DNA from: Lachnospiraceae bacterium NK4A144
GTDB taxonomy: Bacteria; Bacillota; Clostridia; Lachnospirales; Lachnospiraceae
Direction: 5' to 3'
DNA: 64,000 bases
NCBI GenBank assembly: GCA_000424365.1
Contig: AUJT01000003.1
Span: 1-64,000, forward strand
Both the position numbers and the translations under genes were made by a program. How positions within the stretch are numbered: the stretch's first letter is position 1; each line of letters begins with the position of its first letter. Under the pieces are notes generated by a model. The model was not told the origin of the DNA. It worked only from the letters and a program-made list of their open reading frames with translations, and ran no database searches. Positions 23,056 to 39,070 of the stretch are shown one piece after another.

Positions 23056-23374
23056 GATGTCACGGATTGGTTACTGTTCACTCGCTTCCAGCTCGCTCAC
23101 GTAACGGATTTTGCCAATTAAATCGCCTCCGGCGATGGGCAAAATCCAATGGCTTTTCATCTTTCTTGGTCGCAACCTCCGCAGCGTAGTGCTCCGGTTG
23201 CGTCTGAACAGTAACACGGATTGCTTCATTGCTACGCAATTCCCGCAATCCTAAAACACTCGCATTCCGCGTAATAACGCTACTTGCTCGTGTTTTGCGG
23301 GTCCCAAGGTCTCAATCCTCTTTGTGCAAGCACAATCGGATTTTGACCTTTTGACCCTGACATCATCATAAATC
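23056..23374. repeat. Interspersed element family R3, copy a, interrupted by R2 copy b
   Basis: Without the inserted R2 element and one duplicated 8-mer, this stretch matches R3 copy b (25046-25357) read in reverse. Hairpins are GGATTGC with GCAATCC, AAAACAC with GTGTTTT, and AATCC with GGATT around TTGTGC/GCACAA. The insertion is exactly at ACGGATTG. Confidence 0.8.
23062..23223. repeat. MITE-like element family R2, copy b, with 8-bp target duplication
   Basis: The 146-bp element (23070-23215) has the ends GTTACTGTTCA and TGAACAGTAAC. Direct repeats ACGGATTG flank it at 23062-23069 and 23216-23223. It is inserted into an R3 element whose other copy shows the uninterrupted site as ACGAATTG. 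Confidence 0.9.
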
Positions 23375-24905: not shown

Positions 24906-24988
24906 TGCACCGGATGGGAGTCGAACCCACACGCCACGGGGACACAGGAACCTAAATCCTGCTCGTCTGCCAATTCCGACACCAGTGC
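24906..24988 (-). tRNA. tRNA-Leu (anticodon TAG)
   Basis: An 83-nt class II tRNA on the minus strand. The acceptor GCACTGG pairs with CCGGTGC (one G-T pair). The anticodon stem CAGGA/TCCTG encloses loop TTTAGGT, giving anticodon TAG. There is a long variable arm (TGTCCCCGTGGCGT) and a T arm TGGG-TTCGACT-CCCA. The discriminator is A and CCA is not encoded. Upstream, an extended -10 (TGTTATACT) lies about 15-25 bp beyond the 5' end. Confidence 0.95.
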
Positions 24989-25045: not shown

Positions 25046-25357
25046 GGTTGATAACAGGGTTCTAAGTAAGTTACAGTTCACACGTAAACGGAGCATTTAC
25101 TGCGGAGTTTACGACCAAAAAGTGGAATAGCCAATGGATTTTGCCCATCGCCCTAGGCGATTTAATTGGCAAAATCCGTTACGTGAGCGAGCTGAAAGCG
25201 AGTGAACAGTAACCGAAGTAAAAAATCCGATTGTGCTTGCACAAGGAGGATTTTTTATTTGGAACCCGCAAAACACGAGCATGTAGCGTAAATACGCGGA
25301 ATGCGAGTGTTTTAGAATTGCGTGAGCTTCGTAAGAAGCGTAGCAATTCGTGTCATC
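25046..25357. repeat. Interspersed element family R3, copy b, interrupted by R2 copy c
   Basis: It is the inverted partner of copy a. The left remnant GATAACAGGGTTCTAAGTAA aligns with GATGACAGGGTCAAAAGTAA at 17687-17706, showing that R2 copy c also split an R3 element, at a different position from copy b. The uninterrupted remainder is 25222-25357. Confidence 0.75.
25062..25221. repeat. MITE-like element family R2, copy c, with near-perfect 8-bp duplication
   Basis: The element 25070-25213 has ends GTTACAGTTCA and TGAACAGTAAC (one mismatch), inverted relative to copies a and b. Flanks CTAAGTAA and CGAAGTAA match at 7 of 8 bases. The outer hairpin stem is GTAAAC/GTTTAC here, compared with GCAACC/GGTTGC in copies a and b. 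Confidence 0.85.
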
Positions 25358-25385
25358 AAAAGTACGTTTTAAGGAGTCACCATTC

Positions 25386-35706: not shown

Positions 35707-37479
35707 TCAAAGATTTTCAGGAACATCCTCAAGTAAGTCAAGTGAGTATTCTCTATTCATCTTGTTGCACATCTTGATAAATGTATCAAGCGGGATATTC
35801 TGCAGATTCTTCTTTGTACCACGAATATTGATAGATACAGTATTTGTCTCTGCTTCCTTATCACCGAGAACGATGATGTACGGATCACGCATTGTCTTAA
35901 AGCGTTTGATCTTAACCTTCATGTTCTCATCTGTGTAATCAGCCTCAAATCTGATACGATTCTCGAAGCAAAGGTCTGCTACCTTCTTTGCATACTCGTT
36001 GTTTTCTACACGGATAGGAACGATTCCTACCTGCTTCGGAGCAAGCCAGAACGGGAAGCTGCCCTTGAAGTTCTCGATGAGGATTCCGATGAATCTCTCA
36101 AGGGAACCAAAGATAGCTCTGTGGATCATAACCGGTCTCTGCTGGCTTCCGTCAGAAGCAATATACTTCAGATCGAAATTCAGCGGAAGCTGGAAGTCAA
36201 GCTGGATAGTACCCATCTGCCACTCACGTCCGATGCAATCCTTCATCTTAAGGTCGATCTTCGGACCATAGAATGCGCCATCACCCTCATTGATCTCAAA
36301 TCCGTCAGCTCCAAACTTGTGAGTCAGGATAGTCTTAAGTGAAGCCTCTGCCTGATTCCAAAGCTCAATATCACCCATGTAGTCCTCCGGGCGAGTAGAA
36401 AGCTCAGCTGCATATGTCAGACCGAATGTTCCGTAGATTTCCTTTGCGATATCCATGATGTCGCCGATCTCTTCCTCGATCTGTTCGTTTGTAACAAATG
36501 TATGACAATCATCCTGATGGAATTCCTGTACGCGGAAGAGTCCGTTCAGCGCACCGGATTTCTCTCTTCTATGGATCGGATCAGTCTGTGAGAAACGAAG
36601 CGGAAGCTCCTTGTAACTTCTCTGACGGCTGCGATATACATTGATCGCATTCGGGCAGTTCATAGGCTTGATCGCATAAGTATTGTTCTCATCGATCGGA
36701 ACTACAAACATTCCGTCCTGATAGTGATCCCAATGTCCTGACTGAACCCAAAGTTCCTTTGAGCTCATGATAGGGCCAGAAATCTCCTGATATCCATGAG
36801 GCATATGCTTTCTTCTCCAGTAATCAAGAAGTGCATTATATACCTCCCAGCCTCTCGGAAGCCAGTACGGCATACCCGGTGCTGTCTCCTGGAACATAAA
36901 GAGTTCCATTTCAGGTCCGATCTTCTTATGATCTCTCTCCATTGCCTCTTTAATGAATGCGAGATGATCTTTAAGACCCTTCTTATCAGGGAACGCATAT
37001 ACATAAATTCTCTGAAGCTGATCCTTATGCTCATCACCTCTCCAGTAAGAACCGGATACGGACTTGATCTGGAAAGCTGTATTCATAAGTTCCTGAGAGT
37101 TCTCAACATGAGGTCCACGGCAAAGATCTACGAAATCTTCACCTGTGTAGAATATAGTGAGTGTCTCTCCTTCCGGAAGATCCTCAATAAGCTCTGTCTT
37201 GTACTTCTGATTCTTGAAGATACTAAGAGCCTCTTCACGTGATACTTCCTTTCTTGTCCAGTCTTCACGACGCTTGATGATCTCACGCATCTTGTCCTCG
37301 ATGGACTTGAAATCATCAGTTGTCACTGCACGAGGCAGATTGAAATCATAATAAAATCCATCTGCTATCTGCGGTCCGATGGCATACTGAACATCTTTAC
37401 CAAAGATCTCTATCACCGCTTTTGCAAGAATGTGTGCCAGTGAATGACGATACAGTTTCAGAAATTCTTCTTTTTCCAT
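35707..37479 (-). CDS. thrS: Threonyl-tRNA synthetase lacking the TGS domain
   Basis: Class II synthetase of 590 residues that charges tRNA-Thr. It starts directly with the editing domain (LYRHSLAHILAKAVIEIFG, with the HxxxH motif, and the CRGPHVENS segment); the usual N-terminal TGS domain of about 60 residues is absent. Core motifs are ELPLRFSQTDPIHRREKSGALNGLFRVQEFHQDDCH (motif 2) and MIHRAIFGSLERFIGIL (motif 3), with the zinc ligand Cys in AIKPMNCPNAINVY. The C-terminal anticodon-binding domain (APKQVGIVPI) is intact. A GAAGGAG site precedes the ATG. The leader carries three anticodon-like hairpins, suggesting feedback on translation. Confidence 0.96.
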   Translation of the reverse strand: MEKEEFLKLYRHSLAHILAKAVIEIFGKDVQYAIGPQIADGFYYDFNLPRAVTTDDFKSIEDKMREIIKRREDWTRKEVSREEALSIFKNQKYKTELIEDLPEGETLTIFYTGEDFVDLCRGPHVENSQELMNTAFQIKSVSGSYWRGDEHKDQLQRIYVYAFPDKKGLKDHLAFIKEAMERDHKKIGPEMELFMFQETAPGMPYWLPRGWEVYNALLDYWRRKHMPHGYQEISGPIMSSKELWVQSGHWDHYQDGMFVVPIDENNTYAIKPMNCPNAINVYRSRQRSYKELPLRFSQTDPIHRREKSGALNGLFRVQEFHQDDCHTFVTNEQIEEEIGDIMDIAKEIYGTFGLTYAAELSTRPEDYMGDIELWNQAEASLKTILTHKFGADGFEINEGDGAFYGPKIDLKMKDCIGREWQMGTIQLDFQLPLNFDLKYIASDGSQQRPVMIHRAIFGSLERFIGILIENFKGSFPFWLAPKQVGIVPIRVENNEYAKKVADLCFENRIRFEADYTDENMKVKIKRFKTMRDPYIIVLGDKEAETNTVSINIRGTKKNLQNIPLDTFIKMCNKMNREYSLDLLEDVPENL

Positions 37480-37497
37480 TTTTTCTCCTTCTTTTCG

Positions 37498-37592
37498 CAG
37501 CCGGTCTGTACCGCAGACCGCTGATCGTTCTTTGAGAGCCTGTACCGCAGGCTGCTCGTTTATTAATTCTGCTCCGTCTGCACCTCAGACAG
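37498..37592 (-). promoter_or_regulatory. thrS leader with three tRNA-Thr anticodon-like hairpins
   Basis: In the mRNA, three hairpins occur at 37574-37592, 37534-37557 and 37498-37523. Their loops read GAGGUGC, GCGGUAC and GCGGUAC, each putting GGU at positions 3-5 of a 7-nt loop, like anticodon 34-36 of tRNA-Thr(GGU). The stems TGTCT/AGAC, AGCCT/AGGCT and GGTCT/AGACC resemble anticodon stems, and the last two have longer bulged bases. The third hairpin ends 8 nt before the AAGGAG site (37485-37490). No T-box AGGGTGG-type motif is seen. Confidence 0.7.
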
Positions 37593-37642
37593 TTCAGAAG
37601 CTCGGTGTAATTAACGGTATATTCTATACACAGAACGCATAC

Positions 37643-37671
37643 ATAATAGCCCCTGCTCTAAAAAAAATCAA
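37643..37671 (-). promoter_or_regulatory. Sigma-A promoter of thrS
   Basis: On the minus strand TTGATT (37666-37671) and TATTAT (37643-37648) are 17 bp apart. The predicted leader is about 155 nt long and covers the three anticodon-like hairpins. Confidence 0.75.
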
Positions 37672-37714
37672 GTTAAAATGAGTTAACATATGTCGGCATA
37701 TTTCGGTCAAAAAG

Positions 37715-37741
37715 CCAATGATTTTTCATCTTTCTTGGTCG
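37715..37741. repeat. R2-family fragment
   Basis: This 27-bp stretch matches 23146-23172 of R2 copy b with two mismatches (CCAATG..TTTTCATCTTTC core) and continues as GGTCGTAAAC, the variant seen in copy c. No inverted ends remain, so it is a truncated relic beyond the 3' end of the GGDEF gene. Confidence 0.6.
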
Positions 37742-37765
37742 TAAACAGCTACGCATACACTCTCA

Positions 37766-38875
37766 CTAAGAACACTTAGCAAACCCGGCTGAATTGTACG
37801 CTGATTTTTTCTGCTTAACTTTATTTTCATACATTTTTTTATCAGCTCTTTTGAGGCAGTCTTCGATTTTTTCTCCACAGGTTCTTTCCGCTGTTCCGTA
37901 TGCCAGACTAAACTTGAAATCACCATATTCCGAATAGCAGTTTTTTAACTCCTTAAATACCTCTATTCGTTTATCAAGAATATACTTATTAACATTTACA
38001 GAAATCAGACAGAACTCGTCTCCACCAACTCTGTAAAGTCTGCCAATTCCTTTAAAGCACTTCTGGATCGTTTTCGCTGTTGCGCGAAGATAATGATCTC
38101 CAACTGCATGACCTTGATTATCATTGATTTTTTTCAGATCATTTAGGTCAAAACTGATCATGATAACATTTTTTTCTTTTTTTAGCTGATGAATTCGAAA
38201 ATTAAAGACATTACGATTCTTCAATCCTGTTACTGTATCAGTCTTATAATAAAGTTCCTGAATAAACATATAATACATCAGTGTCGCGATCGAAACACAG
38301 CACCATAGTATCTGGACCGTTGGAAATATCATCTGTACCAATGTTCCAGATAACATCATCAAATAAACCAGAGTGAGATACGCTACATCATATGGTTCCA
38401 ATTCATATTCTTCTCTAAGTTTTCCATACATAAATAGTAAAAAAGAATATGCGGAAACTATCGTAACGACAGGAATCAATGGTCCTCTAAAGTAACTATT
38501 ATCAACCGGATTTATCCCGAATATTATCGGATATTTGATATTTAAAATGCACAAACCTTCGTATATCAAAATGGGGATCATTATCTTTTTTTTGCTTCTA
38601 AACATCCCCTCTTCCGTATAATAGTTAAATCCAAGCGGAACAAGAGGTGATAGCATTTTAGAAATAGAATTACCAAAATGTGCCAACACATATCCTATTG
38701 TACCTGTTGAACCAGTCACAAGCTCTGCTATCTGTTCTCCTATAACGATAAACGCGATCATCATCGATGCAAGGATAAATGCTTTTTTTACACCAGGTTT
38801 TATATATACATTATGATGAACCTGAAATATGACAAAAAGGAGAATGAAAATACTGATCAATGTTACTCCCTGCAT
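37766..38875 (-). CDS. Membrane GGDEF-domain diguanylate cyclase
   Basis: Predicted maker of cyclic di-GMP, 369 residues. The N-terminal 200 residues contain about six membrane helices (VTLISIFILLFVIFQV, AFILASMMIAFIVIG, VAYLTLVYLMMLSGTLV and others). The GGDEF domain (about 210-365) has DTVTGLKNRNVFN, MISFDLNDLKKINDNQGHAVGDHYL, and active site RVGGDEFCLI. No RxxD inhibitory site could be placed with certainty. The ATG at 38875 follows GGAGG by 7 nt; a frame 32 codons longer has no site. It is a single gene with no adjacent EAL or PilZ gene. Confidence 0.9.
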   Translation of the reverse strand: MQGVTLISIFILLFVIFQVHHNVYIKPGVKKAFILASMMIAFIVIGEQIAELVTGSTGTIGYVLAHFGNSISKMLSPLVPLGFNYYTEEGMFRSKKKIMIPILIYEGLCILNIKYPIIFGINPVDNSYFRGPLIPVVTIVSAYSFLLFMYGKLREEYELEPYDVAYLTLVYLMMLSGTLVQMIFPTVQILWCCVSIATLMYYMFIQELYYKTDTVTGLKNRNVFNFRIHQLKKEKNVIMISFDLNDLKKINDNQGHAVGDHYLRATAKTIQKCFKGIGRLYRVGGDEFCLISVNVNKYILDKRIEVFKELKNCYSEYGDFKFSLAYGTAERTCGEKIEDCLKRADKKMYENKVKQKKSAYNSAGFAKCS

Positions 38876-39070
38876 TTTCAATCCTCCTTTCTTTAAATCC
38901 ATCAGTAACTGCTGAAGAGCCTTCAGAGTTCTGACAGTTACATTCATCATTTCTTTACCGTATAATTGCAAGTTTCCATGAATACAATATACATTTCACG
39001 CAATCTACATAATTTTAATATGCTTGTTACTGTAAAGCAACAATATGGATCAATGTTTGTGCTTTTATAC
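38876..39070. other. Gene-free spacer upstream of the GGDEF gene
   Basis: AT-rich spacer between the GGDEF start and the tuf terminator. No gene or repeat was recognised; it should hold the GGDEF promoter. Confidence 0.4.

Follow-up and report, generated by a model that had tools for sequence, protein, structure and literature searches.

The leader of the threonyl-tRNA synthetase gene thrS in Lachnospiraceae bacterium NK4A144 carries three hairpins whose loops present GGU where a tRNA would present its anticodon, and a hairpin of variable stem, with a loop that is mostly YGGUW, recurs before thrS in relatives. We read these hairpins as a candidate translational operator modelled on the anticodon arm of tRNA-Thr, to which threonyl-tRNA synthetase (ThrRS) would bind so as to repress its own synthesis; judged from sequence, this reading has a probability of roughly 0.8. 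An anticodon-mimic thrS operator is already known as a kind. The GGU-hairpin element itself matches no described family (a search of Rfam release 15 gives no matching family, and the open-access literature yielded no report of it).

Hairpins upstream of thrS

The window (the whole 64-kb stretch of DNA analysed here) shows all three tandem hairpins on the minus strand where a first-pass annotation had placed them (Table 1). The loops of H1, H2 and H3 are the 5-mers AGGUG, CGGUA and CGGUA, which put GGU at would-be anticodon positions 34-36. That annotation had described 7-nt loops; its placement of GGU holds, but G-C pairs in the minimum-energy fold reduce each loop to 5 nt. Nor does the last hairpin lie 8 nt from the ribosome binding site, since 7 nt separate AAGGAG from the end of H3 when its bulged outer stem is counted. 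The H2 and H3 loops are 34 nt apart. The leader is about 157 nt long (about 37480-37636, minus strand), its 5' end being set by the promoter-like site, from which a transcript would start near 37636. Where that annotation saw a good sigma-A promoter a promoter-like sequence is present; the consensus scan finds 1 such site against 0.6 expected in shuffles, a weak sign taken alone. The fold of a 176-nt stretch of the leader reaches -52.5 kcal/mol (z = -3.75), and none of 200 shuffles is equally stable.

Table 1. Features of the thrS region in the window, with scores of the hairpins under the covariance model
Feature	Position	Strand	Sequence or product	Basis	Loop	Covariance-model match
H3, hairpin proximal to ribosome binding site	37498..37523	minus	CAGC.GGTCTG-CGGTA-CAGACC(g)GCTG; inner hairpin CGGTCTG-CGGTA-CAGACCG	fold	CGGUA 37509-37513	37501-37521, 24.2 bits
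H2, hairpin	37537..37553	minus	AGCCTG-CGGTA-CAGGCT	fold	CGGUA 37543-37547	37535-37555, 22.1 bits
H1, hairpin	37574..37592	minus	CTGTCTG-AGGTG-CAGACGG	fold	AGGUG 37581-37585	37573-37593, 18.9 bits
thrS	35707..37479	minus	590-aa threonyl-tRNA synthetase ORF			
Ribosome binding site	37485..37490	minus	AAGGAG	sequence		
Promoter-like site	37643..37671	minus	TTGATT-17-TATTAT	consensus scan		

Several more familiar identities can be set aside. In the genome the core CTGNGGTNCAG is present at 25 sites; among the 16 sites examined a stem of at least 6 bp forms only at the three leader sites, and the remaining 13 reach stems of 3-5 bp, which rejects a genome-wide dispersed repeat. A covariance model of the hairpin (described below), searched against all 64 kb with an E limit of 5, has no match beyond H1, H2 and H3; all three are in its training set, and the lack of further matches in the window is the informative part. 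A tRNA gene is rejected as the identity of the hairpins, ARAGORN finding only a tRNA-Leu gene (24906-24988) in the window. A T-box is likewise rejected, in agreement with the annotation, as a search of 37300-38000 returns no Rfam match, RF00230 included, at E up to 10; elsewhere in the same genome T-boxes do exist (six Rfam matches, three above cut-off).

At gathering score, Rfam reports in the whole window only two Clostridiales-1 RNAs and one ribosomal protein L10 leader (RF00557, 53049-53187, minus). The two Clostridiales-1 RNAs (23209-23365, minus; 25203-25358, plus) flank the tRNA-Leu gene in opposite orientation. Upstream of thrS on the same strand is a 401-aa ORF (37766-38971, minus) whose C-terminal part looks GGDEF-like by eye.

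The ThrRS of the window matches the Pfam families tRNA_SAD, tRNA-synt_2b and HGTP_anticodon, that is, the editing, catalytic and anticodon-binding domains, and shares 99% identity with its counterpart in Lachnospiraceae bacterium MC2017. A TGS domain gives no Pfam match in the window protein, the one protein examined for it; residue 3 of this protein aligns with residue 64 of E. coli ThrRS. Because about 60 leaders belong to ThrRS proteins outside the window's subfamily (defined below) that also begin near this residue, loss of TGS does not set the subfamily apart.

Enrichment of GGU loops in thrS leaders

We surveyed 269 thrS leaders, namely that of the window, the best 80 of a larger number of contig loci, and those from genomes of the family, order and class, for which listed loci and chosen stretches were taken among the matches listed in each search. 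Leaders L059, L060 and L149 were left out as too short, and the rest include 232 non-redundant leaders, 145 with a T-box motif and 87 without. The hairpin scan covers the last 100 nt of each leader and calls for a 5-nt loop on a stem of at least 6 pairs. Scan matches in L143 and L148 were excluded as true tRNA genes, and L313 (a 5-bp A+T-rich stem with loop AGGTG), found in a loose scan, is excluded from the count of carriers.

The 87 leaders without a T-box motif hold 43 five-nt-loop hairpins, of which 16 read nGGTn and 15 YGGTW, the latter in 13 leaders. For YGGUW, at 4/1024 of possible loops, 15 of 43 has a binomial p of about 1e-25; in the 145 leaders with a T-box motif, YGGUW accounts for 1 of 81 such hairpins. 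NGU at the loop centre is thus above chance in thrS leaders, and loops of related leaders do show GGU at the anticodon position, as the first-pass reading requires: when the 5-nt-loop hairpins of 99 leaders lacking the T-box motif are compared, near-copies being counted, GGT forms the loop centre in 21 leaders, AGT in one, and CGT or TGT in none. The background in 983 kb of non-leader DNA from the 80 loci, both strands, is 7 YGGTW hairpins with stems of at least 6 pairs, a rate that predicts about 0.07 in 91 leaders (those without T-box motif by an earlier pattern). The sole background hairpin with a stem of at least 8 pairs, in L047, lies antisense within a coding gene.

A hold-out of 42 leaders drawn after the motif was fixed repeats the pattern, with YGGUW hairpins in 5 of 15 leaders without a T-box motif (L306, L319, L320, L325, L328) and 1 of 27 with one (L308). 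Three of these (L306, L319, L308) are close kin of earlier cases, and the stems of L320, L325 and L328 are new. Beyond the strict scan, L324 (one stem mismatch) and L326 add two carriers to the hold-out. The element sits close upstream of the start codon; for the nearest hairpin of a leader, the perfect stem ends on its 3' side at about -15 to -41. Stems were a selection criterion and carriers are defined by GGU, which makes their pairing partly a matter of construction; the enrichment of GGU loops among all hairpins is independent evidence.

Covariation and the covariance model

Across 20 hairpins, double-sided changes occupy 52 cells against 16.4 after shuffling, and a covariation score of 0.918 compares with 0.221 on shuffling and 0.09-0.18 on sliding. 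The number of pairs with a double-sided change (8 of 8) is not exceptional, being reached by 186 of 500 shuffles. Stem pairs 1-4 form in all 27 hairpins compared, C33 stands in place of U33 in 23 of the 27, and the pair closing the GGU loop is G-C or C-G, with one U-G. The minimum-energy folds of local segments of L103 and L320 lack the GGU hairpin.

The covariance model, built from 20 hairpins and searched over 1.06 Mb at E up to 5, gives 42 matches: 37 in thrS leaders, one before serS and four elsewhere (three that by position run antisense to coding genes, in L047, L058 and L119, and one in the T-box region of L102). The 37 consist for the most part of sequences used in training and their near-copies; L319, L320, L324, L326 and L328 lie outside both, L319 being still kin of L097. 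Single E-values are modest (0.02-4), as expected for a 21-nt motif, and at E up to 5 the model misses the carriers L325, L089/L092 and L201. The first-pass annotation had proposed such a search of relatives' thrS leaders for repeated hairpins; GGU hairpins do recur there, but the repeated arrays met in this survey stay within the clade of the window.

Arrays of two or three hairpins are found, among the leaders surveyed, only in that clade (the window, L041-L043, L045, L046 and L306), with members 34-38 nt apart; other carriers have one hairpin in the stretch scanned. The spacing between H2 and H3 is 34 nt in six of the seven clade leaders and 35 in the other (several are near-copies), and the linker and the distance from hairpin to ATG vary. 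The second hairpin of L046 is imperfect, and the closing pair of H1 is missing in L043 and L306.

Distribution in one ThrRS subfamily and relation to the T-box

The window's ThrRS subfamily, delimited by about 60-99% identity to the window protein, accounts for 127 of the 269 leaders, of which 125 have a usable length. Carriers number 32 of these 125 (near-copies counted), 31 from the hairpin scan and the remaining one, L326, from the covariance model, its hairpin standing at the head of an operon. Other ThrRS leaders give no GGU hairpin in 141 usable cases, the two scan matches there being real tRNA-Thr(GGU) genes.

A FastTree phylogeny of 110 subfamily members divides into 60 leaders with a T-box, 20 with the hairpin, 4 with both and 26 with neither, and calls for at least 12 changes in presence of the GGU hairpin, gains and losses not being told apart. 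By raw counts the hairpin occurs in 20 of 46 leaders without a T-box against 4 of 64 with one (p = 4e-6), but over independent pairs the inverse relation is not significant (sign test, median p = 0.125). On these figures the GGU hairpin has likely, though not certainly, replaced the T-box. The two occur together in L053 and L308 (T-box over the Rfam gathering score) and in L089/L092 (in L089 by motif only, Rfam falling below gathering score); a T-box over gathering score is confined to L053 and L308 among the 28 carriers, the window aside, that were run against Rfam. The T-box motif scan, which spans 260-300 nt, misses distant T-boxes, as in L063, where Rfam finds one, and L067, a leader of identical reading grouped with it.

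Many relatives of the window have neither element. Because this holds for the near kin L044, L047 and L048 and for the 26 leaders of the tree set, the GGU hairpin is labile. The idea of an anticodon-mimic operator in Clostridia keeps its frame and was drawn too narrowly: in its general form the element is one YGGUW hairpin per leader, found here and there in the subfamily and in some leaders accompanied by a T-box.

Leader L326 extends the element to a second gene. There the seryl-tRNA synthetase gene serS (148-1437, identified by Pfam) precedes thrS (start about 1501), and a hairpin TTTCCGGC-CGGTA-GCCGGGAA (within L326:101-160) ends 27 nt upstream of the serS start; the stretch immediately before thrS has no GGU hairpin. 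This arrangement may put the charging enzymes for serine and threonine under one switch read by ThrRS.

Proposed mechanism and its alternatives

G34, G35 and U36 form the threonine anticodon identity set of bacteria, as given in the part of PMC9976931 consulted. Because the hairpin shows this same GGU, ThrRS is its natural reader. In the mechanism that we propose, free ThrRS, when in excess over uncharged tRNA-Thr, would bind the loop through contacts of its anticodon-binding domain with G34-G35-U36, and the bound dimer would block access of the 30S subunit to the nearby Shine-Dalgarno sequence, lowering translation of thrS. A build-up of uncharged tRNA-Thr would compete ThrRS off the leader, so that synthesis could resume. 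The 34-35 nt spacing in the window's clade would suit a single ThrRS dimer holding two hairpins.

ThrRS might instead bind the GGU hairpins and leave ribosome access alone, its effect falling on transcription elongation or on the stability of the mRNA. The variable distance from hairpin to start codon (that same range of about -15 to -41) would allow this, and in L326, where the hairpin heads the serS-thrS operon, it would pay to control the entire transcript. That hairpin, though, is placed as expected of a translational operator, right in front of the serS ribosome binding site, the nearest hairpin in the listed carriers is shortly upstream of the ribosome binding site, and the coding strand of the window's leader has no terminator-like site; we regard control beyond ribosome access as improbable. 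A reader other than ThrRS is less probable still in our estimate. Enzymes that modify tRNA, such as the t6A37 machinery, may also read GGUA at 34-37, and the GGUA of the leader loop copies just these positions of tRNA-Thr(GGU), so another RNA-binding protein or a modifying enzyme might recognize the loop with ThrRS uninvolved. Of the 20 carriers listed from beyond the window's clade, however, 10 have U or C at position 37 and so no t6A site, and on this ground a t6A-enzyme site is rejected. The central triplet is moreover GGU, the identity set of bacterial ThrRS, and not CGU or UGU, and the element tracks one ThrRS subfamily. Last, hairpins are common in leaders and near kin do without these ones, as they might if the hairpins were chance structures or mere spacers (RNA stability elements) with no specific ligand; the loop enrichment, the background rate and the hold-out strongly disfavour this, and we hold it to be the least credible explanation.

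Keeping to the translational operator read by ThrRS, we lean, with less assurance, towards a wider proposal. The element would represent a second class of autoregulation by anticodon mimicry, of independent origin and distributed over one ThrRS subfamily (Lachnospiraceae and neighbouring families), with its dozen or more changes of presence, a possible takeover from the T-box by way of leaders with both, and the capacity to head a serS-thrS operon. At this one gene, a riboswitch that senses tRNA would then have given way to an operator that mimics it.

Comparison with known systems

To our knowledge, and as the reviews consulted present it, anticodon mimicry as a bacterial gene switch has E. 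coli thrS as its one well-studied case. A further case of separate origin, built on so reduced a hairpin, would mean that the anticodon-mimic solution recurs, and its minimal 5-nt loop would define a short RNA tag read by ThrRS. As described in the portions consulted of PMC11088916 and PMC3858243, E. coli ThrRS bound to two anticodon-like hairpins prevents binding of the 30S subunit, and control follows the identity rules of the tRNA (so also the consulted part of PMC9976931). A change of the loop triplet to CAU is reported to shift control in E. coli towards MetRS (PMC9976931, PMC11088916). The likeness lies in an anticodon-like hairpin with NGU at 34-36, in the thrS leader upstream of the start codon, and, by those same portions, in the presence of two mimics as in the window's clade.

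The build is otherwise different. The E. coli operator has four domains, and its start-proximal hairpin in strain K-12 folds as GUGAUCU-UUCGUGU-GGGUCAC, with a 7-nt loop and CGU, whereas here one to three plain hairpins bear 5-nt, mostly YGGUW loops. The window's element thus departs from the E. coli-type architecture (7-nt loop, U33, CGU) in loop size, closing pair, C33, G34 and copy number, and the window's ThrRS is without the TGS domain. Because the build differs and the hosts are distant, the resemblance points to convergence, and the GGU-hairpin operator probably evolved separately from that of E. coli.

The T-box is the usual control of thrS in Firmicutes, the consulted part of PMC2494555 giving at least 29/34 for several ligase genes including thrS, and a T-box leader (RF00230) is present by motif in 64 of the 110 tree-set leaders of the window's subfamily. 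A T-box binds tRNA, whereas the element of the window, at a leader with no T-box, resembles it. If the hairpin is such an operator, a single gene would exist in nature in all four states (T-box, operator, both, neither), a set on which the passage of control from a tRNA-reading riboswitch to a tRNA-copying operator could be studied. Synthetases of yeast also read mRNA elements that resemble an anticodon stem-loop, HisRS on its own mRNA and ThrRS on RPC10, according to the excerpts consulted of PMC6542539 and PMC9956033. These mimics differ from the present one in being eukaryotic and, by the same excerpts, in that the HisRS site is a GUG stem-loop near mRNA position 1094, away from a ribosome binding site, and that RPC10 is not the gene of the synthetase itself.

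tRNA-Thr genes

The anticodon loop of tRNA-Thr(GGU) in relatives reads UUGGUAA or AUGGUAA; compared with UUGGUAA, the leader loop has 5 nt, a closing pair, and mostly C33 for U33. A tRNA-Thr(GGU) pattern matches in 8 of 16 genomes, 7 of them confirmed by ARAGORN (the match in G181 is no tRNA), and has no match in the genome of the window. A tRNA-Thr of another family used as a DNA query finds tRNA-Gly only. Among the 65 tRNA matches listed for this genome (150 of 203 candidates scored, ten long ones of 83-89 nt left out), tRNA-Thr(UGU) and tRNA-Thr(CGU) are present and tRNA-Thr(GGU) is not; Ala and Ile tRNAs are also unseen there, and tRNA-Pro has AGG and UGG. Because Ala and Ile are unseen too, the assembly may lack the tRNA-Thr(GGU) gene. 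If its absence is real, the leader loop would copy an anticodon borne by no tRNA of the cell.

In three genomes of family f19, thrS is immediately preceded by a real tRNA-Thr(GGU) gene of the same orientation (L143:1337-1410, L144:1318-1391, L148:1349-1422), and in these genomes tRNA and synthetase are possibly co-transcribed.
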